Below are positions 2,003 through 57,494 of a stretch of 64,000 nucleotides of DNA, in pieces. The notes under the pieces are model-generated. The model saw nothing but the letters and a program-made list of their open reading frames with translations. It was not told the DNA's origin and did no database searches. The position numbers were made by a program, and so were the translations under genes. Source of the stretch: Ustulina deusta (Eukaryota > Ascomycota > Sordariomycetes > Xylariales > Xylariaceae). Within the stretch, counting starts at the first letter, position 1. Each line of letters opens with the position of its first letter. Where the stretch lies: NCBI GenBank assembly GCA_023159155.1, contig JAJNNX010000001.1, positions 186,001-250,000 on the forward strand. Direction: 5' to 3'.

Positions 2003-3780
2003 TCAGTCGCTATCGGAAAAGTCAACTTCGTGCAACTCGTCGGGATCGTGTGGATAGCTGATTGCAATCTGCCCGTTTAAGTAATCGACGAAATACATGT
2101 TCAACCGCATCTCTTCCCCTTTAGTCAGTTTTGCGTCGTGCCATTGGTTGAGTAGCTCAACTCTTATGCCCCGATTGCCAACGTGATGTAACATTTGCGC
2201 AAAGCCCCAAAGATTGTCAAATGTGAAAATAGTTATGGCGTTAACTGTGAGAGTCGCTAATCTGGGTAGTTTACTCAGAGGCTCGAGAATTAAGTCATCA
2301 ACTAGGCTACCTCCGAAGCTGAGTTCCTCTAGACGAGGAAGGGCTGTGGCAATACGGCTAATTTCGTCGGAGCACACACAGGTTTGCATCAGATTCAAGG
2401 TAGTTAGACTGAATAAATGACAAATCGAATGCGTAAGTTCGGGGTACATGGATAGGATGAGCTCGTGAGTAGCGTCTTGTGAAGCAATGGTAAGTGACTT
2501 AAGCTGGTCTTGTTGGGCAAGAGCGCTCCATGTTGCTACTGTGACCTCTTCAGAAGCATACTGGTAGTCCTGGATGTGTAACTTTTCAAGGCGGATCTCA
2601 GGGGCTTGCAGAACTTGTTTTAGGATAGGCAAGGCAGCTCGAAAATGGTGAAAACTTAGTTCACGCAACGCTTTACAACTGCTGATCCATTTCGCGACCT
2701 GTGCTAGCTCTTCTTCAGTTAAAATATCAAGCCCGCTTCTATCCGTTGCTTCCCTTTCGATAAGGAGCCTTTCTAGGGCAGTACATTCGGAGAGTACATG
2801 GACGCTCTTAAGGGTGGATGCCGGGAGGCTCCTGAGATCTAGGACTCTCAACGATTCAGCGTGGGTCTTGAGAGCAGCGAGAGTGACTTCGCCGAGATTG
2901 TTCCGACTATGGACTTCGAATATTTGGAGAGTGTTTGGCCGAAGAGCAAAAAAGAAAGCGGCCATATCTTCGGCAGCAGTATCGCTAGAACAATGGAAGC
3001 AGGTCAACTCGGCGAAGTTAGGACAATACTCGGTGATAGCATTAGCAGCTTCCACGCCTAAGACAGATCCATCCTGTATTTGCAACGACGTTAGAGCGCC
3101 GAGGCGGCTGAGCCAAGTTGGAAGAATGTCGCGCGGAAAAACAGAGGCCTCGAGATGAGTCAAAGCCATGGTAGTACCGTTGTTGTCGGCAAGCCCTTTG
3201 GTGTACTGAATAATGGAGTCTGCACATCTGCTGGTGATAGCTGGATTGTCGAAGGGAGGAGGTCTGGACCGGGTCCTCTTGATAGACTTATTACCCCGTT
3301 GTAAGACTAGAAAGTCTTGCATCAAACCCTCAAAAAAGAATTGACGAAGGGACCAGTCAGACCGAATATCATCCAGACATTCGACAAGGCTGCCCAGGGA
3401 CAGAGCGCGAATGTATGCACAATACGGATACCTACACCAGTTAGGGTCAATAATTACCATTTTGATCACGATCTAGAGGGTGGCAAAACTATCGAAGGCT
3501 TGCAAAACATGACTTGGGCCTGAGAAGGAGCCCTTATGTTCTAAATGTTACCAGAACAGAAGAATATGACTCTAAGCTAAGAATTACTCACGGTGTAGCT
3601 CCTAGACTAGACAAGATAATAGACCTCCAGAGCCGGGCAGCTTGAGCTGTATGGAATATAAACGGGTCCATAACTTCCAGGATGCTGTGAAGACTGTCAG
3701 CAGGAGAAGTGTGTCGCATAGTCCTTAGCTAACCTATAGAGTTGCTCCACCGCGATACTGGCGATTCTACGGCTGACCAT
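2003..3780 (-). CDS. F-box-like / leucine-rich-repeat-type protein
   Basis: I infer a spliced protein of 522 residues from exons 3780-3734, 3684-3592 and 3431-2003. The short N-terminal part (about residues 1-60, with ILEVMDPFIFHTAQAARLW) and the following CAYIRALSLG resemble the start of fungal F-box-like proteins. The rest is a series of degenerate leucine-rich repeats (SLRVLDLRSL, ALRELSFHHF, SLTTLNLMQT, RLEELSFGGS). Such proteins usually act as substrate receptors of SCF ubiquitin ligases, but the F-box itself is weak here, so the Skp1 link is inference. The C-terminus is acidic (DELHEVDFSDSD). The first intron (3685-3733) is ordinary, 49 nt with a GCTGAC branch site. The second (3432-3591) is an introner-like element. 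The gene is divergent from rad9. Confidence 0.75.
3432..3591 (-). mobile_element. Introner-like element, copy A (intron 2 of the F-box-like gene)
   Basis: This 160-nt intron interrupts codon phase 2. Read on the minus strand it begins GTGAGTAATTCTTAGC and continues AGAGTCATATTC. It contains a CTCCTTCTCAGGCCC core and ends with GGTAATTATTGACCCT, then TGGTGTAG. These three blocks recur in the same order in the P450 intron at 46300-46482. Compared with that copy it has a 6-nt insertion near the donor and a shorter middle. A strong internal stem is not obvious in this copy. Confidence 0.8.
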
Positions 3781-4616
3781 GGAGCAATGATATAGAGTAG
3801 CGAACTCGCGACATGCACCAAGCTCCTGGCATATCAGGAGCATTATGTCCTGTGGCAATATTGTTTTGTTCATGTCGCCCGCTTCGCGGTATGCCGGGTA
3901 GACTGGTCGGGTGGAAGGGTATATGTATGAGAAAAATAATAGCGAGAATGATGTTGCATTTGATTAGAGTACTTCTACTAGGGGTAGTAGGGGTAAGAGG
4001 ACAAAGAAGAGGGGAGTGAAGCTGCACAAGACAAATTGGACGTCTGGATGTACATATGTATCCAGCAGCTCACCTTTAGGTGAGGTAAGTACCACGTAGG
4101 TAGGAAGTACATTAATATGTCCTGGCTAAATATATATGTACATAATACCTATCGACCTACTGTACGCAACTTGAAGGTTAGAAGTATCTTATCTTAGATT
4201 CTGTACCTAAGAAGGTACGGGTACCGGGGACTGTGTACATGCACATGTAGGTACACAAATACCTTGTGACGCGTTCTAAAGTGCCTGCGCCTGCCGCCAC
4301 TTGACGCGCCGTTCCTACAGCTGGAACCACTGGGCACCACCTAAGTGGGTAAAGATACCTCTTATATCGCAGGTGGGCAATCATTCATGCAACTTCATTC
4401 ATATTTTGTCTGGAATGCCTCAGTTGTACCTATCGAAGTCTGATAAAGATGACATATATACCCTTACATGCTTGAGTTTGAGATACCTAATACCTACCCT
4501 AGGTACCCAGATATCTTCTCACGCCGCCTATTGACCTAGGAATCGGCCGATTCAGACCTTTGGTCATCAGATGCATCACGAACTATCCACTGCACTAATA
4601 GACAAGGCCAAGAGCT
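3781..4616. promoter_or_regulatory. Divergent intergenic region between F-box-like gene and rad9
   Basis: The region holds the two promoters of the divergent genes. It is rich in the GGTACCTA/TACCTAGG-type words seen in other gaps of the window (about 4200-4260 and 4485-4510). I see no open frame with family resemblance. Confidence 0.5.
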
Positions 4617-6281
4617 ATGGCCGTATTAAAGTTCACCTTGAGTGAAGATGGGGTGAGCGTCCTACGGGATGCGCTTACATGCCTCGGTAAATTTAGCGAT
4701 GAGGTGTCTCTAGAAGCCAAGAGAGATAGGGTGCGTGCATATTTGCCCTGGTGTGTTTCTGTCTGTCTTATGCTACCTATTGCTGTTGTTCATCGCGTGC
4801 TGAAACGTCGTCTTCTCCGTCAAAGCTGGTTTTGACGGCTCTCAACACATCCAAGTCGGCATATGCCTCCGTCGCCTTCGCCACGAACCGTTTCTTCTCC
4901 AAGTACCATTATGCAGGAGTTGCGCAGAACCGCGAGAAGTTCTTTTGCAAACTCTACACCCGGGTACGTCGAGGCTTTGCGTGTCATCTAGTATTCTGTG
5001 TAGAGACGCTGATAGAGCTCATGGTAGGTGCTGTTGTCTCTCTTCCGGAGTCGAAGTGGGGACCCCGTGCATGAGAGGGAGAAGGACACAACCATCGATC
5101 GATGTGATGTCGTCGTCACTGATGAACCTGGCAAGAAGAGCAGATTTGTTGCTAACATCGTCTTCCGGAATGGTGAGTGCCATCTCACAAACCACCGCTG
5201 TGCCTCTCGCTCACCTCGAAAGGGATAACCACCAAGTACCGGCTGCCTTTCGAGGTCAGTCCGCCAGTGCATGCTAAATTCGACAAGGCTGAGGCCATGA
5301 ACAACTGGGCCATATCACCCAGGACTCTGCGTCAGCTGATGGACCATTTTGGCCCTGGTATTGACTATCTGGACATTCATGCCGAGGAAGAAGTTGTGAA
5401 CTTCACTTGCTTCACCGAGAAAGCTGCTAACAGCGATGGTAAGTCTCGTTACCAGATACTCGGAATTATCGCTAATGCAACATGCTTAGAGGTCTTAAAG
5501 AAGCCACTGCAAACATCTATTGCCGTGGCACGAGATGAGTTCGAAAACTTCCATGTAGAGGAAGAAAACCTTCACATTGTCATCAGTGTCAAGGACTTCC
5601 GGGCCATCATCCACCATGCTTCCATCTTAGGGGTCGATGTCTTGGCTAATTATTCGATGCCAGCCAGACCCATGCAGCTCAAATATGACGGCGACGGTAT
5701 CAAGTGTGAGTTCCTACTTATGACCGTTGGAGAGCGTGGGGTATCTGGTCAAAAAACCAAGAAGACTCGAGCGAATGCAAAAGGGCCTGCTGGGCCGCAG
5801 CTCGAGTCAACGGTTAGCAGAGCCGACTCCCATACACCCGCGCCAGTACAACCACCAGCCCCTAGAACGCCACAGTCTCGTCCGAACCCTATGCCTTCTC
5901 TGAGACCGCCTATAGAGCGTCCTTCCCAGCGCCCCCCTCCAGCTACTCTCGAGTCCGAGTCGCTATTTGTACCCCAGGATAACGACGAGCAATGGGAACC
6001 AGTCAATGTTGATGAAGAGGAAGAAGAAGAAGAGAACGCGCGTTTGGGCTGGGATGCTAGTGGTAACCCGGTAAGTGTTTTCTTTGTAATTCACACTGGC
6101 TTCTGAGAGAATACTGACCAGGACTTAGAATCCGGCAGCGGTGAATATGCGCACCGTGATGGGCAACCAACCAAGCGCTCCTCAGCCCGGCAGAGACGTT
6201 GAGTCTGATCCAGACCTGACCCAACTGGAGCCAACACAGCGTCTTTCTCAAGTCCGCAAATTTGGCCTCTTTGGTGATTAG
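4617..6281 (+). CDS. rad9: DNA damage checkpoint clamp subunit Rad9
   Basis: Rad9 forms the PCNA-like 9-1-1 clamp with Rad1 and Hus1. The clamp is loaded at damaged DNA and activates the ATR/Mec1 checkpoint in the nucleus. Six exons (4617-4730, 4826-4963, 5028-5172, 5223-5438, 5490-6070, 6129-6281) join to 448 residues. The N-terminal two thirds is the clamp fold, starting MAVLKFTLSEDGVSVLRDAL and containing LNTSKSAYASVAF and LLSLFRSRS. It ends near residue 300 with MQLKYDGDGIKCEFLLMTVG. The remaining tail is Pro/Ser-rich and acidic (VDEEEEEEEN), as expected for the regulatory tail that is phosphorylated in Rad9 proteins. It ends with TQRLSQVRKFGLFGD, typical of fungal homologues. The five introns are 50-95 nt and unrelated to the introner family. 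The gene is convergent with the RCC1-like gene, with 109 bp between stops. Confidence 0.93.
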
Positions 6282-6390
6282 GGCAAGGCACGAGGCAGCT
6301 GTGTATCCACGTGGAACAATTGCTGGCGCGCGACGCATATTGATTGCGAGAGCTATTGGTAATGAAGCCTAGTGAGGCTCACGGTCACGG

Positions 6391-7497
6391 TCACAAGAAA
6401 ACACCCTCCGTCATGATGTAAATCCAGCTTGTCGCACAGCCAGCTCCAATAGTTGTTATAGTCGACCCCTCAGGTAGATTCTTCACCGAAGCAAGCACGT
6501 TCCAACGCCCTTTGACGTCGCCGGATTTCTTATCAGTGTGAGGTCCACAGTTGCCGTGCTCGCCCCAGCCCCAGGTCACTACCTCGCCAGCCTCCGTTAA
6601 AGCTACAACATGCTCGCTTCCAGCTGCGATATGGGAGATTTCCGAGAGGCCAGGGGGAGGCAACTGACCATGGTCATCTCGGCCCCATGCTACTAGCATC
6701 CCATCCCGTTTGAGAACGTAAATACCCCCCCAACTTGCCGTCACGGTTTTCCAACTGGGTATCTCGGGGGGCGCTTGACTTTTTAATTCCCATTTATCGG
6801 CTCCCAGAACCAAGATCCTCCCATCCCCGGGTTCTGCAACGAGACAGGTCGTGTATTGACAACAGACAGCCTTGACTACTTTGAACGGGACGCCGCTGAT
6901 CTTCCTGGGCTTGGCGACTATGCCTCTGGCGTCGGCGCCATCCCCTGGCTGGCCCAACTGACCTTTCCTTCCGTTACCCCAACCATAGACATCACCATTG
7001 TCGAGGACGACAACGACATGCCTAAACCCGGCCGCGAGGCTTGTCACCGCAGTCCCAACTGGAGGAAAGTCCGGTATAGATGCGGATGTCCCCCCTATAC
7101 CCTCAGTATCACCGCAACTATACAACCTCGTCGCCTGGCAATTTTGATCCTCAGCAACAAGGATCGTAGTGTCCCATGTGCAGGCAGCATACGTGATCCG
7201 ACCCGGATTAGTGGAGCTCGGAAGACAGAATTTCCGGAATACCGGACGAATATTCCCTTTATCTTCATCGTTAATAATTCCACAGCAGCCGCTAGCTGAA
7301 TCGCCACTCCAATATGCATTTCCCGATGCCGTGATGATAATTGTATGGTTGCCGCCAGCTGCCACTTGGGTGATTGAGTCGTTATGGAGAGCTTGGCTGA
7401 ACTCAACTTGTTTGGGTACGGACACATCTTCCTTGTGGCCCAACCCTAGTTGGCCTGAGCCGTTGGATCCCAGTGCGAAAAGGCCTTCCATGGTCAT
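6391..7497 (-). CDS. RCC1-repeat protein (alpha-tubulin suppressor/Ats1-like)
   Basis: This single-exon gene encodes 368 residues built of about seven RCC1-type blades. Examples are GLFALGSNGSGQLGLGH, GDVYGWGNGRKGQLGQ, GMLVAWGRDDHGQLP and EVVTWGWGEHGNCG, and the protein ends in GAGCATSWIYIMTEGVFL. RCC1 folds form beta-propellers that bind chromatin, GTPases or ubiquitin-pathway partners. The overall length and the GCATSWI end fit fungal Ats1-type proteins better than the Ran exchange factor. The frame stays open further upstream but only with non-ATG codons, so I start at the ATG at 7497 (MTMEGLF); a second ATG lies at 7491. The partner and role are not visible from the sequence. Confidence 0.85.
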   Translation of the reverse strand: MTMEGLFALGSNGSGQLGLGHKEDVSVPKQVEFSQALHNDSITQVAAGGNHTIIITASGNAYWSGDSASGCCGIINDEDKGNIRPVFRKFCLPSSTNPGRITYAACTWDTTILVAEDQNCQATRLYSCGDTEGIGGTSASIPDFPPVGTAVTSLAAGFRHVVVVLDNGDVYGWGNGRKGQLGQPGDGADARGIVAKPRKISGVPFKVVKAVCCQYTTCLVAEPGDGRILVLGADKWELKSQAPPEIPSWKTVTASWGGIYVLKRDGMLVAWGRDDHGQLPPPGLSEISHIAAGSEHVVALTEAGEVVTWGWGEHGNCGPHTDKKSGDVKGRWNVLASVKNLPEGSTITTIGAGCATSWIYIMTEGVFL

Positions 7498-9901: not shown

Positions 9902-11191
9902 ATTAACTAGCCCGTTTGTGTGATTGAGTTCAGAAGAATGAACAGCTTGTGATCCTCGGGCCTAATATAGGTCACAGACTACTCGTTAAAGGGGAATCTT
10001 CGTCTTCATACTACTGATTTCAATTACTGTATATATGTATTGAAGTTATGATTCATGGAGAATACATATAAGGCGTAAAATCTCTAACTTACGTAGATAC
10101 CTTTGAAATAGTACTTCGGAAGTATCCAAATAAACAAAGCCCAGACCCCCAATACACATTGCTGCATTTGTCCTGGGATTGTTCATTGATCACGATTTGT
10201 AGACCGGCTTATCACTCCCGTGATTTATCAGCTTCCTCTCTCTCTCATGTCTACACTCTACCCAGCACGGAAGCTCAATCTTACCCCGTGCCGCAGATGC
10301 ATTTGGGCATGGCGAGCGTGTCGCTTCCCGGGTAGAGGAAAGGGGGTCGTCTATTCCCTGTTGCGTCTAGCCAGAGACGTGACGGGGCTGGCATAGATTG
10401 GATCCCAATCCCGGTATAATGCCACACTACAGTCTTCGGAGTCAGCAATTTCCTTTTTTTGAGAACACGCTGTATCTAAATGTTTACGAGCGGAAGAAGC
10501 TCCAAAGACGCGATATTAGCCTAGATAGGAGTCTTCCTATTTCTTGGAATGGCTAGACTAACGTGAGAAAAAAAGGTAACAAGAGTTACTTGCGGTGAGG
10601 TGATAAATGTGCACCGGTCTCGGTCAATGATCTGCGCGCCGGCTGACTCGGCAATATCTATCATTTGGCCATCAACATTTGACCGCCTCGGGTGAGAACG
10701 AAAATGCTCTCTCTTTATGCGCCATTTGGGTAGAGTCTTAGGTCATATAGTGAGCTGTGTGAACGACACGTCTTACCGAAGATCGTGGTAGCAAGGATTT
10801 TGCGGGGTAAATCGGCATCCCCTCTTTGATAGTTTCGTGGGGAACCTGAGCGGCTCGGGCAGATTTACATATTGAGAGCGATATGCGAAGTAGGAAGGAA
10901 GTATAGATGCCGCGGAATGCAGACGACGGAGGATAGGACGAGGATCCTCACTGTCGGGGTTCATCGGAGTCGATTTTGAGGCTTTAGATAGCACGATTTT
11001 GCTCGGGAGATGTTGGCAAATGACACCATATTGTATATATATGTTCAGACATACTCGATGCGAAGACGGATTAGTGGCAGTGCATAATTGTTTGTATAAG
11101 CGCTTCTATGCGTTCAGGAACCAAGTCCACAAGCTCTGCTACCGATAATGGACAATTATGTGACATCCTTGGACGAATAAACTCCATTCCT
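9902..11191. other. Intergenic, no gene recognised
   Basis: This is the 3' flank of both TYR1 and the 2-hydroxyacid dehydrogenase gene, which converge here. The first part is AT-rich (about 9990-10130). A 73-codon minus-strand frame near 10.8-11.0 kb has no family resemblance and I do not support it as a gene. Confidence 0.5.
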
Positions 11192-13574: not shown

Positions 13575-15761
13575 TTAAAAGTTTGCCCACAAGTATTTCT
13601 GACCCGCCCAGGATTCCTCGCCAGATGCGATAATTTGGTTGGCAGGGAGAGCAAAGCCGTATGTACCCGTGTCTCGGAGTTCAATCGCCCAGCTGTCATG
13701 GAACGGATTAGCTAGTCATTCTGCCATACATTCTACCAAAACGTGAAGGGGCGGTTGGAACTTACGCGAGCTCCGCTACAGTCACATCGGTGAAGTAATC
13801 GTTACTACCTCCGGCTGTAGCATAGAGTGTAGAGCATGTCTGTCCAGTCGTGAATCGAGTTCCGTGGACTTGGGCGATGGCTGTTCCAGTGCTGCTAGCT
13901 AGAGTATTCTGCTTGGACTGGTTCGGTGCTGTTGCGGAGCAGGAGTAGCCATATGGACTGGGGGTCTTACGTTAGTGTGTTCGTGTAATGGAATTCATGA
14001 GGCTAATAACATACGTCAGGATATATTGACCGTAGCTGTGCCAGTCAATATATAACTTGATACCCTTTCCAGCCCCAAGCGTATCTCCATATGCTGAAAA
14101 TCTTCTATTAGTATTCATGGTAATCGATTTGCTTCGGCGTTCAATCTTACTGCGAATTCCAGTATTCTCTGGGGTATCGCCAGCTGCTGCTCCACGATAG
14201 CTATGTTTATTGTTTAGCCATTCGCCATGCTTCATGTTCAAGCGACTTATGAGATTGCTTCGTTCTAGCACTCGTACGATAATGATGCGTAAGACTGCCT
14301 ACTGTTAAGAAAAGTAGCTTACGTTTCTAGATTTCTCAGTCAGAAACATTCAAGACTATCAGGAGTGGATGAGGAAAACAGGAAATGAGTTAAAATAATG
14401 GAGGGAAACAACCAACCTGATCCTGGGCTTGTAGAAGAGCCTGCGCCGTCCCACTTGTACGGCCAGTTTCTATTTATATCTGTGCCCACTGAGCTCTATT
14501 TGACAGTATGGAGTCAGTAATTGTCCTTTCTGTCTCATTGTTGAAAAAAATGGAAGGGGTTTCGGGAGTTTGCAATAGTGATAGAAACACTTTAATGAGG
14601 TAACTCATGCTCCTGAGACATGTCAAAAGGAGGCGTAAAAGACTCCAGCGGACTGACCGTGCCAGAACGCGTCTGTCGATTTTTGCGCCATAGTCGACTT
14701 GTGGTTTGCGTGTAGACGAACCCTATCCATTTACTATCTTTAGTATTGAGCTTATGTCTAGAAGTGTCAGTCAAACCTACCGTCTGGGTTGACAATTGGC
14801 AAGACGTAAAAGTCATAGTTGTCTAAGACAGCTTTGACGGCAGTATCATTCCCGTAGTTGTTAATGAGCTGATAGGTGATGTATTCGACAGTCTGTGTCT
14901 AGTGTTAGATCATGTTAGAGAGAGAGAGCGGGCAGACTGAAATGACCATTGAAGTAATCCATTCCCTAGCGTGAACATTCCCGTGGTAATAGATGGCGGG
15001 CTTGGAACCTTTACCGCCGCTTCCCCAAAGATGGATACCCTATTTAGGAATATAGAGTCAGAAATTGTCATTTATCATAAAAATGGAAGAGTTTCAGCAG
15101 CTTGCAGTAGGGATAGGAGTAGAAACCCCCTAATAAGGCAACTCGTGCTCCTGAGGCTGCCAAAAAGGGGCATAAAAGACTCCGGCGGACTGACCTGGAT
15201 CGCTCTCCCTTCAAAAGACGTGCCGGCGGTGATCAACTCCGAATTAGAAGGAAACGCAGCCTGCAAACTCTGCAAGAACGTCAAGTGATCGGCGTAAGGA
15301 TGGTATGCGCTGAACCACGAGAAGCTCGGTAGAGCGGCGGCGGCCTTAGCAGCATTGGCGGTTGACACGCTTGTTTCCAAGCCTAGGTCTCAATTAGTTC
15401 GCTCCGTCTACGAAAACACTCATCTCGTCGGCTGACCTGGGAATGGCTGCAGCTCTCCTTCTAGGGCAATATCTGCCCCGAGATCTTCTGTCAGTGTCTC
15501 CGCTTCGTAGTTGAGGGCATTAAATGCATCGAGGCTCTCAGGAGGGACGGCAACATCGAAATGGTGAGTATCAATATGCCCACGGTTACGAGAGAGTTCG
15601 ATGGCGGATAAAGACGCAAGCCGGGCCTCAAGATCTGCCGGGTCACCGTCGGTTATGACGCGGAAGACGTGGTAGCCATCGTATATCTCCCGACCCCGCC
15701 TGTCGATTTGGACGCCAGCAACCAGAGGCGCAATGAACAGCGCTGCACGAAGGAACCTCAT
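13575..15761 (-). CDS. Secreted zinc carboxypeptidase, M14A family
   Basis: This metallopeptidase removes C-terminal residues from peptides outside the cell. Ten exons (15761-15437, 15382-15195, 15039-14947, 14892-14781, 14722-14658, 14495-14413, 14200-14151, 14093-14015, 13957-13766, 13692-13575) give 434 residues. A signal peptide ([17 protein letters not shown]) precedes an inhibitory propeptide and the mature domain (from about residue 115). Zinc ligands are His and Glu in [12 protein letters not shown] and His in [12 protein letters not shown]. Substrate-binding residues lie in [12 protein letters not shown], and the catalytic Glu is in [12 protein letters not shown]. Two of nine introns are introner-like elements. 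Intron 14201-14412 needs a weak GTTGTT donor to keep frame; the better GTTGGT donor 4 nt upstream would break it. The enzyme looks intact if that splice is used. Confidence 0.9.
14496..14657 (-). mobile_element. Introner-like element, copy E (carboxypeptidase intron 5)
   Basis: This 162-nt phase-0 intron begins GTCAGTCCGCTGGAGTCTTT on the minus strand. Before the acceptor it contains GGACAATTACTGACTCC and ends CAAATAG. It aligns along most of its length with copy F in the same gene. Its 3' block matches copies A-C. Internally, GTTTC (14559-14563) faces GAAAC (14584-14588). Removing it joins the exon ending RQTRSGT to the one starting [11 protein letters not shown]. Confidence 0.75.
15040..15194 (-). 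mobile_element. Introner-like element, copy F (carboxypeptidase intron 2)
   Basis: This 155-nt phase-0 intron begins GTCAGTCCGCCGGAGTCTTT and has GACAATTTCTGACTC before an acceptor reading CTAAATAG. It is a clear paralogue of copy E. GTTTC (15091-15095) and GAAAC (15122-15126) face each other at the same relative place. The intron lies shortly before the HxxE zinc-binding motif, so the enzyme depends on its removal. Confidence 0.75.
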
Positions 15762-29761: not shown

Positions 29762-31791
29762 CTAAATGTTCTTAGTGCCTGGAGCAGCAGCGGCCAAAAG
29801 TTTGTCGAAAAGGGGAGTCCCGAGGCCAGTCACAGGATCCCATCCAGCAGTGGCGTTCCAGCGAGCGCCGTTACGGCCAAAAGCCGAGTTGCTAGTGCAG
29901 CCACTCCCGTATCCAGTTGTGACGTCCGTGAAGGCGGCGGCATTGGAGTAAAGGAAAGGGTTCAAGAAGCCCAATGGTGCCAAGCCCTGGCTCTTTCGAG
30001 CGGCATTGAGCAAAGCTACCACGCCGGAAAAGACAGGCGCGGAAGCACTGGTACCCGACAACAGCGCGCTTCTACCCTTATCGACAACAGCGAAGGATGC
30101 GCCCTGGGCGGCAACATCCGGGAAACCTCGGTTGGAGGCATTGAAGTAGGGCGAGTAAGTCGTGCCAATCTTCGAGAGATACGAGCTCACGGCGCTGTCC
30201 TGCCAGGACGGCCGGGCGTGAAGCGTGCTGAAGCCACCGCTCGAGAAGCTAACAGCGGCCTCCGGGCTGACCCCACGAGTGGCGCCGACGGAAGTGATGT
30301 ACGGACAAGCACCAGGGAAGGTAGGTTGGAAATACGCAGCACGATCGGTCACGCGGATACACGAATCCCCGGGGCCGGAGTCGCCGGAGGAGAATACTGT
30401 AACACTCATCGTCAGCTATCTCATCTGAGCGCGATTGATGTATTTCGGGAACCCGCAAACCCCCCCTTCCGGATATGGGTTCGGCACGTGAAAGGCATCC
30501 CCTGCACCCAGAGTGGCCGGGACGAAAAGAACGTGACTCTGAGAATTACTTACAAACGCTGACGCCTCGAGCACCGAGTTGCATGAACATATTGCACACC
30601 TTAAGCGCGTAATCAGATGGCACACTTTGCTCCTCCTCACCATATGAAGTCGAGATGGTTTGGGGTAGGGCTGAGTCGGGCTGGTCCAAGAGATATGTCA
30701 AAAACTCCAGGTACGGCTCGTTGCTCGACGGGCCAGGCTCGTCATCGGTAGGCACTAGAGGCCTAGCCGCAGTGGTCAGCATAACTAGGATTTGAGGCTT
30801 TTGGGGCTATCAAGTCCACTTACCCGCGACCACCGGTGCTGTATTCGAGGATGGGAATGGGAGCGCTGACGCCGAGGATATACTGAATGTCTAGGTTCGC
30901 CTCGCCTAGTGTAGATTAGTACGAAATGGCTCGATAACCAATGGACCCAAACATACCGCTGTCACTGTTGCTGTTCTGATTGTTCAACCCCCCGTTCACT
31001 AGCTCGACGCTGAAGTTCTGTCCCACGGCGCTTGTCATCCAACGCGACTCGAACGAAGCCAGATCGGAATACCTGGCATATTCCTCCAGATACGAAGCGA
31101 ACGCGACCAGATTGCCGCTGGCAGTAGGTGTGTATTGGATGTTGTACAATGACTTGAGGCAAGCCGGTGTGATCTGGCTGGTGTTGCAGTCGGCGGCAAC
31201 ATCGCCGGTCGCTTCAACGCTTGCAACCTTTGCCTCTTCCTCCACAGGGCCAAGAATATGCATGTCAAAGATGGTGGACTTCTTCGCGCCGAGCTGTCCG
31301 AACCGAGTGGTCGGCTGGATCAAGTCAATATTCTTGGCGAGTTCATCCGGCACACTGTAGTCGAGTGTTCGGAGCTTAGGGCCGCCACCTTTTTCATACT
31401 GATACCACGCAAAGGTCGTATTCAGCAGCTCGTTGGCCTTATCCACGGTGGTTGAGAAGGTGATCCAGTCGTTGTTGACGAGAGGCTTGATGTTGCTCCC
31501 ACCCAGCCAACGAACAACGGAAGAGACAGCTTCGTCTGTTGGTGCAGTGTATGACCGCAGCTCGAGCCGACTCAAGTGCTTCCCGTAGCTGGGATGGCCT
31601 GGGGTTGACATTTCAATCACTGCTTGCTCCAATGCGGCGGCATGCTGCTGTGGGAGCGCGACTCGGAGTGTGATCGGCTCGTCCAGAGCAGCTTGGCGGA
31701 CCTGTGTCCATCCTTGGGGAACGGATGGCAGGCTGTCCATTAGCCGGGCCGTGGCGGCCGTGGCGAACAGAGCAGTAGCTAAGGACAACAT
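29762..31791 (-). CDS. Secreted sedolisin (tripeptidyl-peptidase-like, S53)
   Basis: Acidic serine-carboxyl peptidases of this family cleave proteins or tripeptides outside the cell. Four exons (31791-30957, 30905-30824, 30762-30554, 30396-29762) give 586 residues. A signal peptide ([15 protein letters not shown]) leads to a pro-kumamolisin domain ([28 protein letters not shown]). The catalytic Glu and Asp lie in [10 protein letters not shown]. The oxyanion Asp is in [13 protein letters not shown] and the nucleophile Ser in [13 protein letters not shown]. The C-terminal calcium-site region is [10 protein letters not shown]. The frame is open upstream only with non-ATG codons, so I start at the ATG giving the signal peptide. 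Intron 3 is an introner-like element placed just before FSSGD, so activity requires its removal. Confidence 0.93.
30397..30553 (-). mobile_element. Introner-like element, copy D (sedolisin intron 3)
   Basis: This 157-nt phase-1 intron begins GTAAGTAATTCTCAGAGTCA, which differs from copy B by one base in 20. It then has a CCGGCCACTCTGGG block at the place of CTGGCCACC in copy B. Its 3' part keeps CGCTCA, CTGAC and TGTTACAG in the order and spacing of copy B. GAACCC (30449-30454) and GGGTTC (30477-30482) form an internal inverted repeat. Confidence 0.75.
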
Positions 31792-34928: not shown

Positions 34929-35015
34929 AGCACTGACCCGGATTTGAACCGAGGACCTATCGGATGTATTTCGGGAAACTGCAGCCGATTGCTCTACCGC
35001 TGAGCTATCAGTGCT
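34929..35015 (-). tRNA. tRNA-Cys (GCA) with intron
   Basis: The minus strand folds as a tRNA. The acceptor arm is AGCACTG/CAGTGCT, the D arm GCTC/GAGC, and the anticodon stem ATCGG/CCGAT. The T arm is CTCGG/CCGGG around TTCAAAT. The anticodon loop begins CTGCAG, giving anticodon GCA (cysteine). It is extended by about 14 nt (TTCCCGAAATACAT region) directly after the base 3' of the anticodon, the standard site of nuclear tRNA introns. The CCA end is not encoded, as usual in eukaryotes. Confidence 0.92.
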
Positions 35016-44755: not shown

Positions 44756-45290
44756 GAGGTAGATCTACATAAAGGAGTGCGTATGTATATATATGTATAT
44801 ATATTACCTAGGTGCATCACTAGTCCTGCCTATACTACATATACCATCCTAGGCGTCTAATCTTTTCACATGAGTTAAGGGTCAGGTCGCTGCACATACA
44901 ATACAGTATCAAATGTAGTATAAATGGCCCCCTCCATGCCCCTCCCCCTCCCCACACGTCCTATATATAGGTGGGCGATGTGAGACTTCATTGGGATGGG
45001 CAATGTAGAATTCCGCAGCAGGAAAGTATAGTGTTCATTGGTAAACTGAATCATTCTATTCCATTCCATTCACCACATAGGTAAGGTCAAGCATCCAACG
45101 CAATAGTCGCAACTTTCCCCAGACAATGTCAATTACTTGCCATGACACGCCTTCTCCTAGAATAAAGAGATGGTTTAGTTTGTTGAGAGCAGAGATCGCC
45201 TGTAGAAGAAGGCTAGAGTCCTCGCGCAATATCGGTTGTTCATGGCATGCCCATACCTACCCAGGTAGACTCTTGAGGCCCGGGCATTAC
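44756..45290. other. Short intergenic region
   Basis: Convergent 3' flanks of the xylanase and second P450 genes, with a (TATATG)-like stretch near 44780-44805. No gene seen. Confidence 0.5.
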
Positions 45291-47442
45291 TTATTGTAGC
45301 TTCACCCGCTCCTCCACGTGAACCCACATATCGGATATCGAATCTGCAAGAATTGAAGTGTTAGAAATTGCTAGTTCATACGGAGGTCTGAAAAAATACA
45401 TAAACAGAAAGGTTACGAGAACGGGAAGTAAAGAACCCGGGAATGCGTACGCAACCCCGTCAATATGGCATGCTTCCATGGCTTCTCGGGATTGACTAGT
45501 GTCCAGTCAAAGTTCCGGAATAGCTATAAAAATCGGGTTAACCCTGCTCTCAGAATCCACGCTGGTGGCTACAAACAACGTACTTCAAATAGGACGACAG
45601 CAAGCTCACGCAACGCGATGGACTTGCCAAGACATAGCCAGCGTCCGTGGCCGAACCCCAGCATGAGCTCAAACTGCATCGCTTTCACTGGACCATTATG
45701 GTTACTAATTTTCTCTTTCGTTGAGGGGGGGGGGGGGGGGTTGGTTGAGAAACGGCCGAAACTGGAAGATGCTGTGCTAATGAACTCTGAGCTATCCTTA
45801 CGTCTCGTTTCATCTGCCTCAAGCCAACGTTCAGGGCGAAATACGTCGACATCGGCATCGTCCCCATACACACTCTTGTTCCTATGCATAGCCTTAATTG
45901 ATGGTATGACGTTGACACCACCTGGTAGATATACTTCCTGGCCATCAATCGTTACAGTGTCTCCCTCAGGAGGAGTGTCACGAGACAGCGAATTGTTCAC
46001 TGGAGGGAATATTCTCATCCCTTCTTTGATGACTGCCTGGAGATACTTGAGCTCCCTAGCCTGCGCAAACGTGATGATTTTCGGCATCTGTGGTGCTTTG
46101 CCAGACGCCACTGCATCGTCGATCTCCGCCTGGAGGGTTTTGTATACCCGCGGGTTAGTGAACACATAGAGCATGATTCCCCTCAATGCTCCACTGGTGG
46201 TATCGGATCCCGCAACAACCTGCAGTAAGTTTTCCGTCTTCAGATCATCTCCTGATAGGCCTCTCTTCATGAAAGACGTCAGCATGTCTGCCCTTGGCAC
46301 TACAACAATCGGGGTCAGTAATTGCCATTTTGAGCGTGATATAGGGGAGGTGGGGGGGACGGGGGAGAGGGGAGGTTCAAAACCGTTGGGAGCTCCCAAA
46401 ACATGAACCTGGCCTGAAAAAGGAGCCCCCCTACTCTAAAGGTGGCCAGGAAAGGTCGAATATGACTCTGAGAATTACTCACCGACCCCGAGATTCTTTT
46501 GCTCGTTAAATTCTTTCTCCCTGGCCTCTACCATGGCTGCATTGAGCATAGACATTTTAAAAAAGCCCTTGTTGCTGTCGATATCTGGGTTTGGCTGTGG
46601 ACCGACGAAAGGTATCCAATTAGTCCACCAGGTGCCGAGAGCGATTTGCCTGTTGGCCACTTTCAGCCCTTTGTGAATCGATTCGACGTACTCGTCTGGG
46701 TCTTCGTCGGTATTGAGAAGATTGTAGCCACGGCCGAAACCTATCGTACTAATGACGTCGAGGGTAAAGAAATGTATCTTCTGTGCCAAGTCCATCGATC
46801 TTCTCTGGCCAGCATACCTAGACCGGATGAGATTCAGCAGATCAACGGTGCAAGTCAGGATATCGGCTTCTAGCGTCAGATTCTCGATTCCGGAGTACTA
46901 TGATTTTTACGTGAGTGAAAATGGTCCGAGGAAAGCGTCGACAGACTGGAGCGTGGGAGGAAACCTACGCCCCGGATCATTTGTCGTCTTCTATTCTGAT
47001 GCTTTTCGGTGTCCATCTCGGTGAAGACATTGTCACTCCGCCAATCGTAACGGACCCCACGGTAGTACCACTTTGACTTTTTATATCCAGGGTGCGTATT
47101 CGTGCGAGACCACAGATCGGGGGAAGAAGTAATTACCATCGTCGGGGAGACGACGACGATTTGCCCTAACAATAGGTAGCTTGTTAGCGGAGGCGTGTGC
47201 TCTTACAGCCGTTGAGACGATGATATACCATATTTCCGATGAAGCTCAGTATACCAGTTGTGGTGGTCTTCACTCAACAGGGCCAAGGCATGTGGTATTC
47301 CGGTTACCCTCAATAGGAATGGTCCCTTGATGTGGCGCAGCTGAAAGAATAGTTGAATTCTTCTAAACAGGAAGACACTGAGTACGAGGGCGGCGCCAAT
47401 AGTCAACCATGGTTTCAGGAATAGGTATGCGATAAAATCCAT
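45291..47442 (-). CDS. Cytochrome P450 monooxygenase (second of two)
   Basis: Seven exons (47442-47229, 47165-46969, 46897-46483, 46299-45802, 45687-45584, 45523-45451, 45343-45291) give 517 residues. There is an N-terminal membrane anchor (LTIGAALVLSVFLF) and a hinge HIKGPFLLRVTGIP. The I-helix is LLQVVAGSDTTSGALRG with the proton-relay Asp-Thr. The K-helix is KEGMRIFPPVN (ExxR), the PERF-like motif VFRPERWLEADE, and the haem loop GFGHGRWLCLGKSIALRE. It resembles pisatin-demethylase-like/CYP3-clan fungal P450s more than the first P450. Intron 3 is an introner-like element. Intron 4 (45688-45801) contains a run of 16 C on the coding strand. The last two splice sites are chosen by frame and family pattern. 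Confidence 0.9.
45725..45740. repeat. Homopolymer run of 16 G (plus strand)
   Basis: The run lies inside intron 4 of the second P450 gene, where it reads as 16 C before the acceptor. Such a tract could act as an extreme polypyrimidine tract and is prone to length change and sequencing error. Confidence 0.85.
46300..46482 (-). mobile_element. Introner-like element, copy B (second P450, intron 3)
   Basis: This 183-nt phase-1 intron is the best reference copy. It begins GTGAGTAATTCTCAGAGTCA, has a CTCCTTTTTCAGGCC core, and near the acceptor carries GGCAATTACTGACCCC followed by GATTGTTGTAG. In the middle, the palindrome TGGGAGCTCCCA (46387-46398) sits between GGTTCA (46374-46379) and TGAACC (46404-46409), so the RNA could form a hairpin. 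Its length is a multiple of three, but it contains in-frame stops, so retention would truncate the enzyme. Confidence 0.82.
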
Positions 47443-49718: not shown

Positions 49719-49759
<41 letters not shown>

Positions 49760-52438: not shown

Positions 52439-53411
52439 AAGGGATATATCGTCATGTCTTTGCGATCAATACCAGCTGCACTCGAGATAGATTGACTGAT
52501 TTTCATCTTTCCGTTCGGTGCCTCAACTGTGCTTGTTTGGGATGTATCAAATCAAAGGAGTCAAACACCGTGGTACCACCCAAATATCCTATGCGGGATA
52601 TTCTAATGGACACAACCTAACTGGCGTTCTTGGTGTGCCTAAGATGCATAGGTAGAAATTCTTTTCTCTTGAAATCCAAAAATACCATTACTACAATAGT
52701 TAATCGTGCTGCAAAATACTTCCAGGTTGTGGTTGAAACAGCAATTACCTAGCAGTACAAAAAGAATTATATATAGCACCATCTAGGTATGTATCTTGTA
52801 CCTGGCATACCTCTCCTCATGCCTGCCTATGTATCTACGTAACTACAGAGGTCTCCCCTCCAGTCTCATCTTACAGAAATACATACCAGGTCCTATGTGG
52901 TAGGTACCTTGAGGTAAGATATGACCTGGTTGGTACCTTGGGAACAACATCTGGAACAAACTACAAAGTACCTACCCACCTGGCAGTATATATGCAGCTA
53001 TCAGTTATTGGAACAACCCCCACATGCACTAAGATGGTAAGAGACGGGAGTAGGTACCTAGGTACACGGGGACTGAGAACCCTCACAAAGTATAATGCAC
53101 GGCCCTTGTCATCTGCCACTGCGCGAGCTGCAACCCCACTGACGTCCACCACCACCTGTAAAAATTCACTGGAATTTTCGAAAACACTGGTCCACCTAAA
53201 GTTTGCCCCTCAATCGGTCTAAGTTGTGTTATTTTTCCTTGACCAACTCAGCGACCAACGCCACGTCCACACACCGGCTTCTCGTTCTCTCCCGGGCCGT
53301 GACATTAATTATTTGTTGTCGTCCATTCAGACACCAAGCAACAACGGCATCAGCCCTCTTGCCACAGAATCGTAAACGAATCCCGCGAGCGACGGACGAA
53401 AGCCTGCCAAT
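52439..53411. promoter_or_regulatory. Intergenic region upstream of eIF3c
   Basis: This contains the NIP1 promoter and leader. It is dense in TAGGTACCTA-like words (52785-52800, 52895-52915, 52965-52980, 53050-53065). No coding region is supported. Confidence 0.5.
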
Positions 53412-56097
53412 ATGTCTCGGTTCTTCCGCAGCGGCGACGACAGCTCTAGCGAGAGCAGCTCGGACGAGGAGGAGCTCTACTCCGAGGAGGAGGAAGAGAA
53501 GGATGTAGAAGGGTCCGAAGAGGAAGACTCTGACGACGAGGACAAGGACGAGGACGAGTCCGAAGAAGAGAGTAGCGATGACGAGGGAGTCAAGAAAACC
53601 GGCGCCTCGCGGTTCTTGCGCGGCGAGTCGTCCGAGAGCGAGGACAGCGACGAGGACCAGCCAAAGACGGTCAAGAGTGCCAAAGACAAGCGGTTTGCCG
53701 AGCTCGAGGCCACCATCGATGCCATCGAGAAGAAGCAAAGAATCAACGATTGGGGTGCCGTATCTATTGGTATGTGAAGACCAACATGGCACACAAACAA
53801 ACCCGTTGGGTTCCTCATGGCATGTTTGTCGCTAACCATGTGCAGAATTTGACAAGCTCAACCGCCAGGCCGTCAAGATGACCGACGGCGGCAAGGTCCC
53901 CAAGCTCTACGTCAAGGCCATCGTCGAACTCGAAGATGCCATGAACGAAACCATCTCGAAGCAGAAGGTCACCCCGAAGAAGATGAATGCCACCAGCGCT
54001 CGTGGCCTCGTCGCTGTCAAGCAGAAGATCAAGAAACTCAAGCAAGATCACCAGGCTGAAATTGATCGATGTCGAGAGGACCCGCTCGATTTCCTTGCCT
54101 CTGACGAGGAAGAGGAGGAAGTCGCCGCTCCGAAGCCCAAGAAAACCAAGGCCGAGACCTACACCGAACAGGTTGAACAACAAGACGACGACGGCTTCGA
54201 GACCGTCATCAAGGGCGGTCGCACTCTCCAGTTTACCCCCGAAAGCATCTTCAAGCACTTACGTACCATATTGGAGTCTCGTGGAAAGAAGAATACCGAT
54301 AGGCTCGAGCAGATCCGCATCATGGAGAAGTTGCACGCCGTAGCGAATACTCCATACCAGACCATCCGTGTTCTGTTGACCCTTGTATCGGCTAGATTTG
54401 ATCTCGGAACCGGCACATCAAATTCTATGCCTCTTGAGCAATGGAAAGCCGCTGAGAAGGAGCTTTCGACCTTGTTCGAAGTGCTTGAGCAGAACCGAGA
54501 CCACATAGTCATCGAGAACGCCGAGGAGTGGGACGATGACGAGAAACCCCCCACATTACAGGCTGGAGAGAAATATATCAAGGTTCCTGGCAGTGTAGTA
54601 TCATACGTCGAGCGTTTGGACGACGAGCTCACTCGCTCGTTGCAAACCATCGACCCTCACACTTCGGAATATATCGAGCGTCTGACTGACGAGGGTGCTT
54701 TGTATAACGTCATCTTCCGGGGCTTGCTCTATTACGAGACCCTCGGCAAGGACTCTTCTCTGCAAATACCCCAAGACAGCCTAAACCGGATCCTCATGCG
54801 AAGGTTAGAGCACGTATACTTCAAACCCGCCCAGGTGATCAAGATCCTTGAGGAGAACGCCTGGAAACCAGTACCCGCCGCCGTTGAGTCTGTGATCACT
54901 CCTAGAGGCAGCGTTACGGATGCCACACAGCTCCTTAACGTGCTCTGCAACTACCTTTTCGTCAACAGTGAGGGCATCATCCGCGCCCGTGCCATGCTTT
55001 GCCAGATCTACTTCCTTGCGTTGCATGACGAGTATTACAAGGCCCGCGACATGATGCTGATGTCACATTTGCAAGAGTCAATCAACAGCTTCGACGTGCA
55101 GACCCAGATTCTCTACAACCGTACTCTTGTACAGGTTGGGCTCTGCGCATTCCGCAAGGGCCTTGTCTATGACGCACAGAACACACTTCAAGAGATCTGT
55201 GGCAGTGGCCGACAAAAGGAGCTCTTGGCCCAGGGAGTTATGATCCAACGGTTCGCCCAAGTCTCTCCAGAACAAGAACGGCTTGAAAAACAAAGACAAC
55301 TCCCCTTCCACATGCACATCAACTTGGAGCTTCTAGAGTGTGTTTATTTGACATGCAGCATGCTCCTCGAGATTCCGCTGCTAGCCCAGACGGGCTCATC
55401 CCCAGATATCAAGAAGCGTGTCATCAGCAAGACATACAGGCGTATGCTCGAATACCACGAACGACAAATCTTCACCGGCCCACCCGAAAACACTCGTGAC
55501 CACGTTATGCAAGCGTCCCGGGCTCTGGCCGCTGGCGAGTGGAAGAAGGCGATCAACTTCATTCACAGCATCAAGATCTGGGATCTCATGCCGAACACGG
55601 AGGAGATCAAGACCATGCTTTCCAAACAGATCCAGGAAGAAGGTCTGCGAACGTACCTCTTCACCTACGCGCCCTTCTACGACACCCTTGCCGTGTCTAC
55701 CTTATCATCTATGTTCGAGCTCGATGACCGCAAGGTCGCCTCCATCGTAAGCAAGATGATTAGCCACGAAGAGTTGGCCGCGGCTCTCGACCAGGTCACC
55801 TCGACGGTAATCTTCCGAAAGGGCGTCGAGCTGTCCCGCCTTCAGAGCCTGGCGCTCACATTGTCAGACAAGGCCGCGGCTCTCATCGAGACCAACGAGC
55901 GGACGCTTGAGCAGCGGACACAAGGCACAGCCAACGCTTTCGACAGGAGAGGCGGGCAAAATCAGCGAGGTGGTCGCGGAGGAGGACAGAAGACGGGTCG
56001 GGGCGGAGCAAGGACGGGTGGAACGGGACAGGGACAGAGACAAGCCGGCGGCACGCAATTTACGGGAGGTGTGCTCGGTGGCGCTGTTCGAGGGTAG
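53412..56097 (+). CDS. nip1: Translation initiation factor eIF3 subunit c (NIP1)
   Basis: eIF3c is a core subunit of eIF3. It binds eIF1 and eIF5 through its N-terminus and sits on the 40S ribosome. Two exons (53412-53769 and 53846-56097) give 869 residues. The N-terminus is Ser/Asp/Glu-rich ([12 protein letters not shown]) after [30 protein letters not shown] spans the splice. The central helical repeats include [39 protein letters not shown] and [20 protein letters not shown]. The PCI domain lies in the C-terminal third ([39 protein letters not shown]). The end is an RGG-rich tail. Length and order match fungal NIP1. Confidence 0.97.
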
Positions 56098-56500
56098 ACG
56101 AATATCAGGCGTACATGTAGTGCTTTTTCCGTCTCTTTTGTATCTCGTGTGCATAGGGCCCGGGTCGCCTTTCGATGAAAAAGTGTCATTGGCGAATGGG
56201 CTGGTCTAGGGCTAATTGGACGGTCGAGTAGCATATCCATGTCTACTGAGGGAATTAAAATGATTTCACGATGATTGTATAGCGGGATTCTGATGTTCAT
56301 GTTTTTCTTGAATATTAGAGTGTTGTGAATGCTGTGTGCATTATGGTGAGTCTATAACTGGGTGGATATCTCATCTTCGCATGGAATCCTTCTACTGTAA
56401 ATATGCATCAGAAATCTGTCGTCTCCCAACCCATATATACTCGAGGTCTATAGTCTATATTCCCCATCTATTTTACACAGGGTATGCAAGGCCCAGTACT
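56098..56500. other. Short intergenic region
   Basis: Convergent 3' flanks of eIF3c and the hemerythrin-domain gene. No further gene seen. Confidence 0.5.
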
Positions 56501-57494
56501 TTACATTCGCAACTTCCGCACTTCGTCGAGGGACCAGTACCGACGCATGTTTTCGGCGCCGAGGGTGCGGACCTCCTGGTCGAGATGGGTCCAGAGTACG
56601 GCCCCCCAAGTACTACAACACTCGGGGTTAATAATTGTCACTGTTGAGTGTACTCGGTAGGGTTTCACAACGGCTGGAAGCCTTCCCCGGCCCAGGGTTA
56701 AAAAAAAAAAACCCTGAATGCGGCCTGAAAAGGAGAGTTGCTACTCTGAAAGTAGCCGCAACAGCAAGAAGAGAACTCGGGGAATTTATGACTCACTCGA
56801 GCTGGGCTTTGAGGGCGGCCATCTGTAACTCGGTCTCGCCGGAGAGGCAGCGGCTCAAGTAGTCCTGCAAGCCGTCCATGCCTTTGTGAATGTCGGCATG
56901 CTGGCGCAGGAGTTCGGCGGCCTCCTTCCTCTTGCCGTCGTCGTCGTCGTCTTCCTGGTCCTGGCCGTCGGCGGGCAGATTCCGCTCCCGGCCGGTACGG
57001 AACTCGGGCATGCGCCTCGCGAGCTCGGGAAAGACGTACCGCTCCTCGATGGAGTGGTGCAGCTCGAGGTGGGAGACGAACTCGAGCCCGAGGTTGACGA
57101 AGGCCCGGATGGACATGCCCTGGGCCCGACGCCCGCTCGACGCCGACCCGTACAGCACGTTCCACGACGACCGGAAGTGGCTGTGGAAGACGTCCATGTG
57201 CTCGGCGAGACGGTTGTATTCCTTGAACTCGTAGGCACTGAGGGGCGGGAGCTTGGGTTCACCTGAGGAGGAGGAGGAGCTGGCACTCGCCGCCGCCGAT
57301 GCGGAGGCGGAGGCGGAGGACATGTTGGGCGCCGCCGAGGTGGCGAGGGCGCGGGAGCGGGAGAGGGAGGTGGGAGTATTCGGCGCGGGGATGGCTGCGT
57401 GGGGTTGTCGGCCACGGGGTGTACTACTTATTCTGATGGCGGCCCGACTTATAAGAGCCGTGATTACGCGGCGCATACTCATACCATGTCTCAT
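56501..57494 (-). CDS. Hemerythrin (HHE) domain protein
   Basis: Two exons (57494-56797 and 56612-56501) give 269 residues. A basic, Ser-rich N-terminus (MRHGMSMRRVITALISRAAI) could be a mitochondrial presequence; a later start at MSSASAS is possible. The HHE domain runs from about residue 85. Candidate di-iron ligands are His in EHMDVFHSHF, His and Glu in LHHSIEERYVFPE, His in HADIHKGM, and the last His and Glu in THLDQEVRTLG. That last pair is encoded only in exon 2, after the introner-like intron. A Gln/Asp-rich loop (DGQDQEDDDDDGKRK) is inserted in the domain. The family binds O2 or metals or senses iron; the exact role is unknown. Confidence 0.88.
56613..56796 (-). mobile_element. Introner-like element, copy C (hemerythrin-domain gene)
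   Basis: This 184-nt phase-2 intron has GTGAGTCATAAATTCC at the donor, CTCCTTTTCAGGCCG as core, and GACAATTATTAACCCC then GAGTGTTGTAG at the acceptor. GCTACT (56740-56745) faces AGTAGC (56751-56756), and AGGGTT (56694-56699) faces AACCCT (56710-56715) across a run of A. If it is not removed the frame stops at once (GAG TGA) and the last metal ligands are lost. Confidence 0.8.

Follow-up and report, generated by a model that had tools for sequence, protein, structure and literature searches.

Introner-like elements of the Dothideomycetes are described as hundreds of look-alike introns, in several families per genome, of which some are active and others decayed (PMC4457414). Look-alike introns spread genome-wide are also reported for introners across eukaryotes, including ascomycete families described as having neither target-site duplications (TSDs) nor terminal inverted repeats (TIRs), and Micromonas introners have been inserted en masse into coding exons, with some families carrying TSDs and TIRs (Gozashti et al. 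2022, PMC9860276). Taxonomically closer are the sequence-similar [D1,2] stwintrons of the Hypoxylaceae and Xylariaceae (288 stwintrons over 14 genomes) and the canonical introns cropped from them, which appear at new positions with no flanking duplication and with near-terminal inverted repeats. Here we describe a set of introns first noticed in a 64,000-nt stretch of the genome of the wood-decay fungus Ustulina deusta (Xylariaceae; 56 Mb), referred to as the window. They resemble the elements of Fulvia fulva, Dothistroma septosporum, and Zymoseptoria tritici in occurring as many copies of several families in unrelated genes, and in that genes with two gained copies exist (PMC4457414), but they come from another fungal class and the likeness is one of description. 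Like the ascomycete families surveyed by Gozashti et al., family 1 of the set lacks detectable TSDs, whereas the inverted repeats are near-terminal, not terminal, in comparison with families described there as TIR-free; mass insertion into coding exons is shared with Micromonas, although in family 1 of U. deusta there is no TSD. In contrast to the stwintrons, which occur in the same order and family, the U. deusta elements are single canonical introns with different letters in the repeat arms and a 3′ arm lying over the branch site, and they occupy no fewer than 179 places within a single genome.

The original prediction of a multiplying introner family was supported, with corrections to its labels and to the number of families. 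All six segments that it had marked as introns have the coordinates and lengths assigned to them (155–184 nt, minus strand), start with GT, and end with AG (Table 1), and removal of each is predicted, by frame, to restore the reading frame. From their sequences, we hold it to be nearly certain that these are introner-like elements, that is, whole spliceosomal introns, mostly 140–185 nt long, that multiply as units in U. deusta.

Table 1. Putative introner-like copies in the window, with the near-terminal repeat of intron C. E-values are from profiles built without the window copies (family 1) or without introns E and F (family 2).
Feature	Position	Strand	Family	Length (nt)	Phase	Host gene	E-value	Remarks
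Intron A	3432..3591	-	1	160	2		7e-29	
Seventh copy	10427..10593	-	1	167				degraded, GC-AG
Intron E	14496..14657	-	2	162	0	zinc carboxypeptidase (M14)	4.9e-33	
Intron F	15040..15194	-	2	155	0	same M14 gene as E	3.5e-38	
Intron B	30397..30553	-	1	157	1	sedolisin-type peptidase	4.5e-9	diverged
Intron C	46300..46482	-	1	183	1	cytochrome P450	3.5e-39	
Intron C, 5′ arm	46463..46472	-						CTCAGAGTCA; near-terminal; position and pairs read by eye
Intron C, 3′ arm	46308..46317	-						TGACCCCGAT; starts within branch-site motif CTGAC; by eye
Intron D	56613..56796	-	1	184	2	hemerythrin (HHE) domain gene	3.2e-25	internal insert

By sequence, introns A–D are assigned to one introner family (family 1, consensus 156 nt) and the two carboxypeptidase introns E and F to a second, related one (family 2, consensus 158 nt). 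The family 1 test profile was built from 18 copies outside the window, found with intron C or an acceptor 16-mer as probes, and recovered all four introns. Neither E nor F matched a model of A–D at E ≤ 10, and a family 2 profile built without them retrieved both. The weaker matches of that profile fell within family 1 copies in 16 of 16 cases, and family 2 is therefore considered related to family 1, each of these matches being weak singly. Profiles built without window copies gave no match in reversed sequence, the family 2 profile included. Thus homology among the six introns held, but as two related families rather than the single one proposed; both contain a 3′ module roughly 50 nt long, and each has subfamilies. 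The donor block GTGAGTAATTCTCAGAGTCA exists, but its copy labels had been partly wrong, with B and C exchanged: it is full in C, present at 19 of 20 positions in B (GTAAGT...), interrupted by an insertion in A, and weaker in D. Similarly, the core and acceptor blocks ascribed to A, B, and C are exact in C and present as variants in A and D, but neither is found in B. The donor and acceptor blocks contain GTGAGT, CTGAC, and TAG. Intron C carries a pyrimidine-rich insert of about 26 nt. The additional, seventh copy in the window scored 3e-9 in the search with the A–D model and 5.3e-8 with the profile built without window copies, and the reading frames on its flanks look decayed. An Rfam scan of the window at gathering thresholds returned a single tRNA and nothing else.

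Many look-alike introns in unrelated genes had been expected genome-wide, and we located 206 distinct places over 52 contigs, representing several subfamilies; 179 are backed by BLAST or profile matches and 27 by pattern alone, and these counts, being drawn from BLAST and pattern searches, are lower bounds. Pattern searches of the genome gave 42 matches to the acceptor 16-mer with at most one mismatch (2 in the control), 36 to a family 1 donor 25-mer (0 in the control), and 50 to a family 2 donor 24-mer (0 in the control). A consensus search yielded 89 candidates, 40 of which were scored, each with an E-value of 1.7e-24 or better; nhmmer at E ≤ 1e-5 found 70 matches in 231,087 bases and none in the reversed sequence, and a search with intron E gave 27 matches genome-wide, E itself included. 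Capture–recapture with two probes (40 and 36 places, 17 in common) estimates about 85 copies near the consensus, a figure unusable as a total since the copies caught by one probe differ in divergence class from those caught by the other. The density in the DNA examined suggests that total copies number, very roughly, in the thousands. Two young subfamilies stand out, one with 11 other full-length copies at 91–94% identity to a 140-nt query and the other with 21 at 90–95% identity to a 158-nt query, and in both the matches end at the GT and AG of the query. Copying therefore appears to have been fairly recent, with older copies drifting while fresh subfamilies expanded; no pair of copies at 98–99% identity was seen, identities having been taken to one query member per subfamily.

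The copies appear to lie mostly in sense orientation within coding exons, and their predicted in-frame removal runs through conserved domains. After splicing, 40 codons were open on each side in 45 of 67 copies in the sense direction and in 13 of 67 in antisense (random, 23%), with 33 copies open in sense only and 1 in antisense only, and without splicing the reading across 120 nt on each side was open in none of the 67. Pfam domains cross the splice junctions of introns B, C, D, E, and F, and do so in 6 of 10 spliced segments of a chosen set; the protein hosting intron A had no Pfam match. Intron B interrupts a conserved region of the sedolisin-type peptidase (..GVSV|LFSSGDSG..), and the product of the intron C gene is matched at 100% by an annotated P450 of U. 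deusta, P0121, in which splicing falls exactly at C. The host genes are unrelated (P450, sedolisin, HHE, M14, MFS, ALDH, catalase, and GH92) and the copy flanks inspected are unlike one another. Proteins of other organisms were also searched, at low sensitivity, for peptide tails derived from the introns, which gave one candidate, none being scored, and carries no weight as evidence of absence.

Absence from orthologous sites was assessed at two sites through the unspliced open reading frames (ORFs) of relatives. Intron C was absent in three of three, with P0140, P0145, and P0151 uninterrupted across the site on contigs of 20–57 kb. Intron B was absent in five of six (P0001–P0005, three of them on contigs longer than 40 kb), but the expectation failed for the sixth relative protein, P0056, in which an intron ends at the position of B, so that intron B is perhaps not species-specific. 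No target-site duplication was detected among 59 family 1 copies. Their sites are nevertheless biased, with CA|TG at 11 of 59 and T at +1 in 40 of 59, which is unexpected under a random-break model. The base at −1 is G in 8 of 59 family 1 copies and in 18 of 18 family 2 copies; for E and F, this G is needed within the exon to keep the frame.

Most subfamilies looked at possess an inverted repeat that lies at about 8–20 nt rather than at the very ends; it starts about 8–10 nt inside the 5′ end and, near the 3′ end, reaches the branch-site motif. In intron C, 7 of 10 pairs remain. At this near-terminal stem 74% of cells were paired versus 72% in shuffled alignments (1 of 500 as high) and 14–40% when the arms were slid, double changes numbered 24 versus 14.7 in shuffles (5 of 500), and covariation was as high in 1 of 500 shuffles. 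There was no excess over shuffles in pairs with a double change (6 versus 6.0) or in pair types (18 versus 17.0); the signal is small, and sequence kinship alone can raise the other stem measures. The best pairing lay at the matching position in six of seven sequences (p = 0.0225, 0.018, 0.0005, 0.06, 0.18, and 0.001), one of which pairs weakly (p = 0.18), and the seventh pairs best elsewhere (p = 0.10). Whole-intron folding of family 1 was not beyond chance (mean z −0.30, 4 of 59 below −2; upstream-exon control, mean z 0.07, 0 of 59 below −2), and family 2 was mildly stable (mean z −1.27, 6 of 18 below −2). A donor/branch-site pairing of GTGAGTAATT with AATTACTGAC proposed by RNAalifold showed no excess (81.2% versus 81.1% shuffled) and was rejected.

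Introner identity together with the copying scheme set out here forms the explanation that we favor with good confidence. A new copy would insert precisely into the coding strand of an exon, with no detectable duplication of target bases; donor, branch site, and acceptor would arrive with it, allowing immediate splicing out with the protein unchanged. The near-terminal stem may hold the excised intron RNA closed, and that RNA would be put into DNA either by reverse splicing or by break repair with reverse transcription. For the mechanistic component by itself, copying via excised intron RNA, the balance tips only slightly in favor. A more ambitious reading, which we consider less likely than not, is of a modular superfamily of thousands of copies, making up a large share of host introns and moving as folded intron RNA; because the branch site lies within the stem, the stem would close only after splicing, and each active subfamily would have its own matching arm pair, as suggested by two sister copies, one with C16–G127 and the other with A16–T127.

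The principal competitor to copying through intron RNA is a nonautonomous, MITE-like DNA transposon whose transposase binds the near-terminal repeats and makes no target duplication, with mainly the sense exonic copies surviving as introns. The positional constancy of the repeats, the CA|TG bias, and the TSDs, TIRs, or both described for most introner families outside the ascomycetes (PMC9860276) would fit such an element, but we judge it rather unlikely, given that family 1 lacks a target duplication in 59 copies, full-length matches stop at GT and AG, the sense bias is strong, the repeats are nonterminal and overlap the branch site, and ascomycete families are described in the same source as without TIRs and TSDs. 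Twin introns of the [D1,2] type, or their direct derivatives, are very improbable even though they occur in the same fungal family, where two Xylaria clusters of 184–185 nt are of similar size and 10-nt near-terminal inverted repeats are also found (PMC12403724), and canonical introns derived from them are reported (PMC8469720): family 1 has no rule of G before GT, the frame is restored by removal of the whole unit, and in stwintrons the NTIRE letters differ and the branch site is outside the stem (PMC12403724).

Old introns inherited by common descent, and alike through duplication of genes or gene pieces, would be in line with E and F, which share one gene and could reflect local duplication, and of the intron in P0056 at the B site. 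The unrelated hosts and unlike flanks contradict it for the set, as do the relatives without introns B and C at those sites, and we give it hardly any weight. That the likeness reflects shared splice signals and nothing more is negligibly probable; those signals are indeed part of the donor and acceptor blocks, but similarity spans the whole 156 nt (at best 90% to the consensus) and reversed sequence yields no matches.

Ascomycete introners are already known as a kind, repeated stwintrons are known from the Xylariaceae, and among titles in the PMC-subset literature we found no report of introners in Ustulina or Kretzschmaria. We read the U. deusta elements as a new, large, multifamily set of fungal introner-like elements, in which one genome of a Sordariomycete contains single canonical introners in large numbers and of several families and ages. 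The host belongs to the Xylariaceae, a family with known multiplication of twin introns. Among introners, the fungal ones show a DNA-transposon origin least. Proteins from more than 12 named Xylariales exist, and hence genomes exist, which opens individual sites to tests of intron gain, loss, and mechanism. The origin of new introns is a long-open question for which the U. deusta copies are a good test case.

The six look-alike introns of the original prediction, placed in five genes, were recovered when the sequence was extracted: all lie on the minus strand, are 155-184 nt long, start with GT and end with AG. Their shared blocks also exist, but had been mislabeled: the donor, core and acceptor blocks are all complete in intron C, not in B, whose donor block differs at one position and which has neither the core nor the acceptor block. 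Nor do the six belong to a single family. Our first family-1 profile contained introns A-D among its 22 copies and so matched them by construction; a leave-out profile of 18 copies, all from outside the window, detected these four and a seventh copy, with no matches in reversed sequence. The model of A-D missed introns E and F, but a family-2 profile that left both out of its construction matched them.

Introners and other features in the window and on contigs C1, C45, C51 and C58 (E values from profiles built without the window introns; domains from Pfam)
Feature	Position	Strand	Host gene	Domain across junction	E value	Remark
Intron A, family 1	3432-3591	minus		none found	7e-29	
Intron B, family 1	30397-30553	minus	sedolisin-type peptidase	subtilase	4.5e-9	
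Intron C, family 1	46300-46482	minus	cytochrome P450	P450	3.5e-39	
Intron D, family 1	56613-56796	minus		hemerythrin	3.2e-25	
Intron E, family 2	14496-14657	minus	zinc carboxypeptidase	M14	4.9e-33	
Intron F, family 2	15040-15194	minus	zinc carboxypeptidase	M14	3.5e-38	
Seventh copy, family 1	10427-10593				5.3e-8	GC donor
tRNA gene	34929-35014	minus				Rfam, 58.6 bits
Family-1 copy in segment L045	C51:381450-381604					altered acceptor end
Three copies per ~3 kb	C58:46607-49631					one or both families
Three copies per ~3 kb	C1:2589320-2592475					one or both families
Three copies per ~3 kb	C45:422877-426030					one or both families

As predicted, the window introns have many copies in unrelated genes across the genome (56,056,783 bases, 123 contigs), in which the window spans C1:186001-250000. 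The acceptor 16-mer (at most one mismatch) gave 42 matches versus 2 for the reversed pattern, the donor 25-mer (at most three mismatches) gave 36 versus 0 in the control, and the 24-mer family-2 donor from intron E gave 50 versus 0. Intron E as query found 27 matches, itself included, and the best match to the family-1 consensus had 90% identity over all 156 bases (best 40 of 89 candidates scored). Once merged, the BLAST, pattern and profile matches fall at 206 distinct places spread over 52 contigs; BLAST or a profile supports 179 of these, and 27 come from a pattern alone, 15 of the latter from the acceptor 16-mer with its two control matches. These counts are lower bounds, as 40 of 89 candidates were scored for the consensus and 40 of 43 for a family-2 member query, and the probes are biased toward young copies. 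At E ≤ 1e-5, an iterated profile matched the window and 53 other segments (231,087 bases) 70 times; reversing the same bases left no match even at E 10. Segment flanks away from the probes held 12 copies (11 of family 1 and one of family 2, leaving out two more family-2 flank matches) in ~158 kb, or ~1 per 13 kb, and the window holds seven in 64 kb. Scaling from the flanks puts the genome total in the thousands, at ~4,000 (Poisson range ~2,000-7,000), a rough guide only, since neither the flanks nor the window are a random sample and both are probably rich in genes.

The copies behave as introns in coding exons. Both ends could be placed for 67 of 69 copies. With the copy spliced out, the flanks stayed open for 40 codons in both directions in 45 of these 67 when read in sense and in 13 when read in antisense, versus 23% of random places; reading was open on the sense strand alone in 33 cases and on the antisense strand alone in one. 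With copies left in, none of the 67 was open over 120 nt on each side, and two were over 60 or 90 nt. Pfam domains spanned the junction in 6 of 10 spliced segments picked for recognizable-looking protein: MFS, aldehyde dehydrogenase, HlyIII-related (a family name that does not imply a toxin), P450 (below the Pfam cut-off), GH92 and catalase. The other four comprised one methyltransferase domain ending before the junction and three segments without a Pfam match. The P450 encoded after splicing of intron C matches an annotated cytochrome P450 of Ustulina deusta at 100% identity, with 83% of the query aligned; this wood-decay fungus, also called Kretzschmaria deusta, is assigned by NCBI taxonomy to the Xylariaceae (Xylariales, Sordariomycetes). 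Introners seem to occur in all three phases (phase 1, 24; phase 0, 17; phase 2, 15, among 56 copies with at least 25 open codons on both sides), counts that are rough since the frame was chosen by open length alone and is wrong for at least intron D. Multiple gains within single genes seem to have occurred, as at the three-copy clusters on C58, C1 and C45. The L045 copy has TGTTGTATTAG in place of TGTTGTAG at the usual acceptor end; the next AG lies 3 nt downstream, and its use keeps the frame open for 100 codons downstream. The family-1 consensus also has a conserved CTCCTTTTCAGGCC mid-intron (positions 57-70), which resembles a pyrimidine tract plus acceptor and is a possible decoy or alternative 3' splice site.

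Gain was assessed in relatives, whose database ORFs were called on unspliced DNA; organism-named proteins come from annotation and have probably been spliced, which makes them uninformative on introns. That some of the ORFs are unspliced is visible from ends running into other introns, as in P0056, which starts inside one, and the starts of P0001, P0003 and P0005 and the end of P0151 look the same. Among the 120 matches listed for each site, 9 proteins were examined for site B and 8 for site C. The expected absence from relatives was borne out at site C, across which P0140, P0145 and P0151 (contigs of 20, 23 and 57 kb) are unbroken; P0143 is likewise unbroken, but was excluded from the count because its 2.7-kb contig could be cDNA. 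At site B it held in part: P0001-P0005 are unbroken (P0001, P0004 and P0005 on contigs of 41-52 kb, P0002 on 4.7 kb and P0003 on 1.5 kb), P0001 being 88% identical, whereas P0056 (89% identical over 71%) starts inside an intron whose end coincides exactly with site B. A further protein that crosses site B, P0015, is of unclear kind and was left out of the count. The P0056 intron implies that the insertion predates Ustulina deusta or that the site was hit twice. Its intron-derived letters are compatible with a CTGAC spaced from the acceptor just as it is in the introners.

Pairwise identity among the family-1 copies compared averages 64%, with a nearest-neighbor median of 77% and a best pair of 92%. 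With a member of that pair as query, 11 further copies matched in full length at 91-94% of 140 nt; a family-2 member found at least 21 others of full length at 90-95% of 158 nt (40 of 43 candidates scored), a query from another subfamily found 10 at 79-88%, and one old-looking copy only five others; this spread points to overlying bursts of different age. Weaker family-2 profile matches, each weak alone (E 0.002-0.8), fall inside family-1 copies in 16 of 16 cases, in the 3' part, with none in reversed sequence, and indicate that the two families are related.

Near-terminal inverted repeats were found in both consensuses. In family 1 the 5' arm, CTCGGAGTCA, lies ~10 nt inside the intron and the 3' arm, TGACCCCGAG, runs on from the branch-site motif, with 9 of 10 positions complementary; the family-2 arms, CTGGAGTC and GACTCCAG, are complementary at 8 of 8; one copy in segment L086 pairs throughout 13 nt with one wobble. 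The best pairing lay at the matching position in six of seven sequences tested (p 0.0225, 0.018, 0.0005, 0.06, 0.18 and 0.001) and elsewhere in the seventh (p 0.10). Across 69 family-1 copies, 74% of stem cells were paired versus 72% when shuffled (1/500 as high), and 14-40% when the stem was slid off position; double-changed cells numbered 24 versus 14.7 (5/500) and covariation was 0.143 versus 0.117 (1/500), with no excess over shuffles in pairs with a double change (6 versus 6.0) or pair types (18 versus 17.0). The family-1 signal is modest, and relatedness of copies can inflate these figures. A comparison of two sister copies shows 11 differences in 140 positions, six of them in the 5' arm, a clustering that is partly ascertainment because one sister was found through its 5' end; the differences include one matched exchange, A16-T127 versus C16-G127. 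Folded as a whole, family-1 introns show no remarkable stability and family-2 introns a mild one.

No target duplication was found in 59 family-1 copies. Family 1 favors CA|TG sites (11 of the 59), and the exon bases after the intron were T at +1 in 40 and G at +2 in 29. All 18 family-2 copies compared carry G at -1. Its donors mostly have C or T at position 3, and those of family 1 are mostly GTGAGT or GTAAGT; on one reading, family 2 would need the exon G for U1 pairing given its position-3 base, and family 1 would not.

Taken together, the precise GT/AG ends, the lack of target duplication, the strong bias toward the sense strand and the repeats near the termini fit the copying of new introners through excised intron RNA, a route proposed for fungal introners (PMC9860276) and also considered for the stwintrons of Xylariales (PMC12403724, PMC8469720). 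A DNA element that inserts without target duplication is a possible alternative source. The near-terminal stem would act after splicing, in a debranched intron, because its 3' arm overlaps the branch site and pairing would compete with splicing.

A literature search in a PMC subset listed no paper with a title on introners in Ustulina deusta, and repeated twin introns are already known from the same fungal family, the Xylariaceae. The elements described here are a new, large case of fungal introner-like elements, a known kind.
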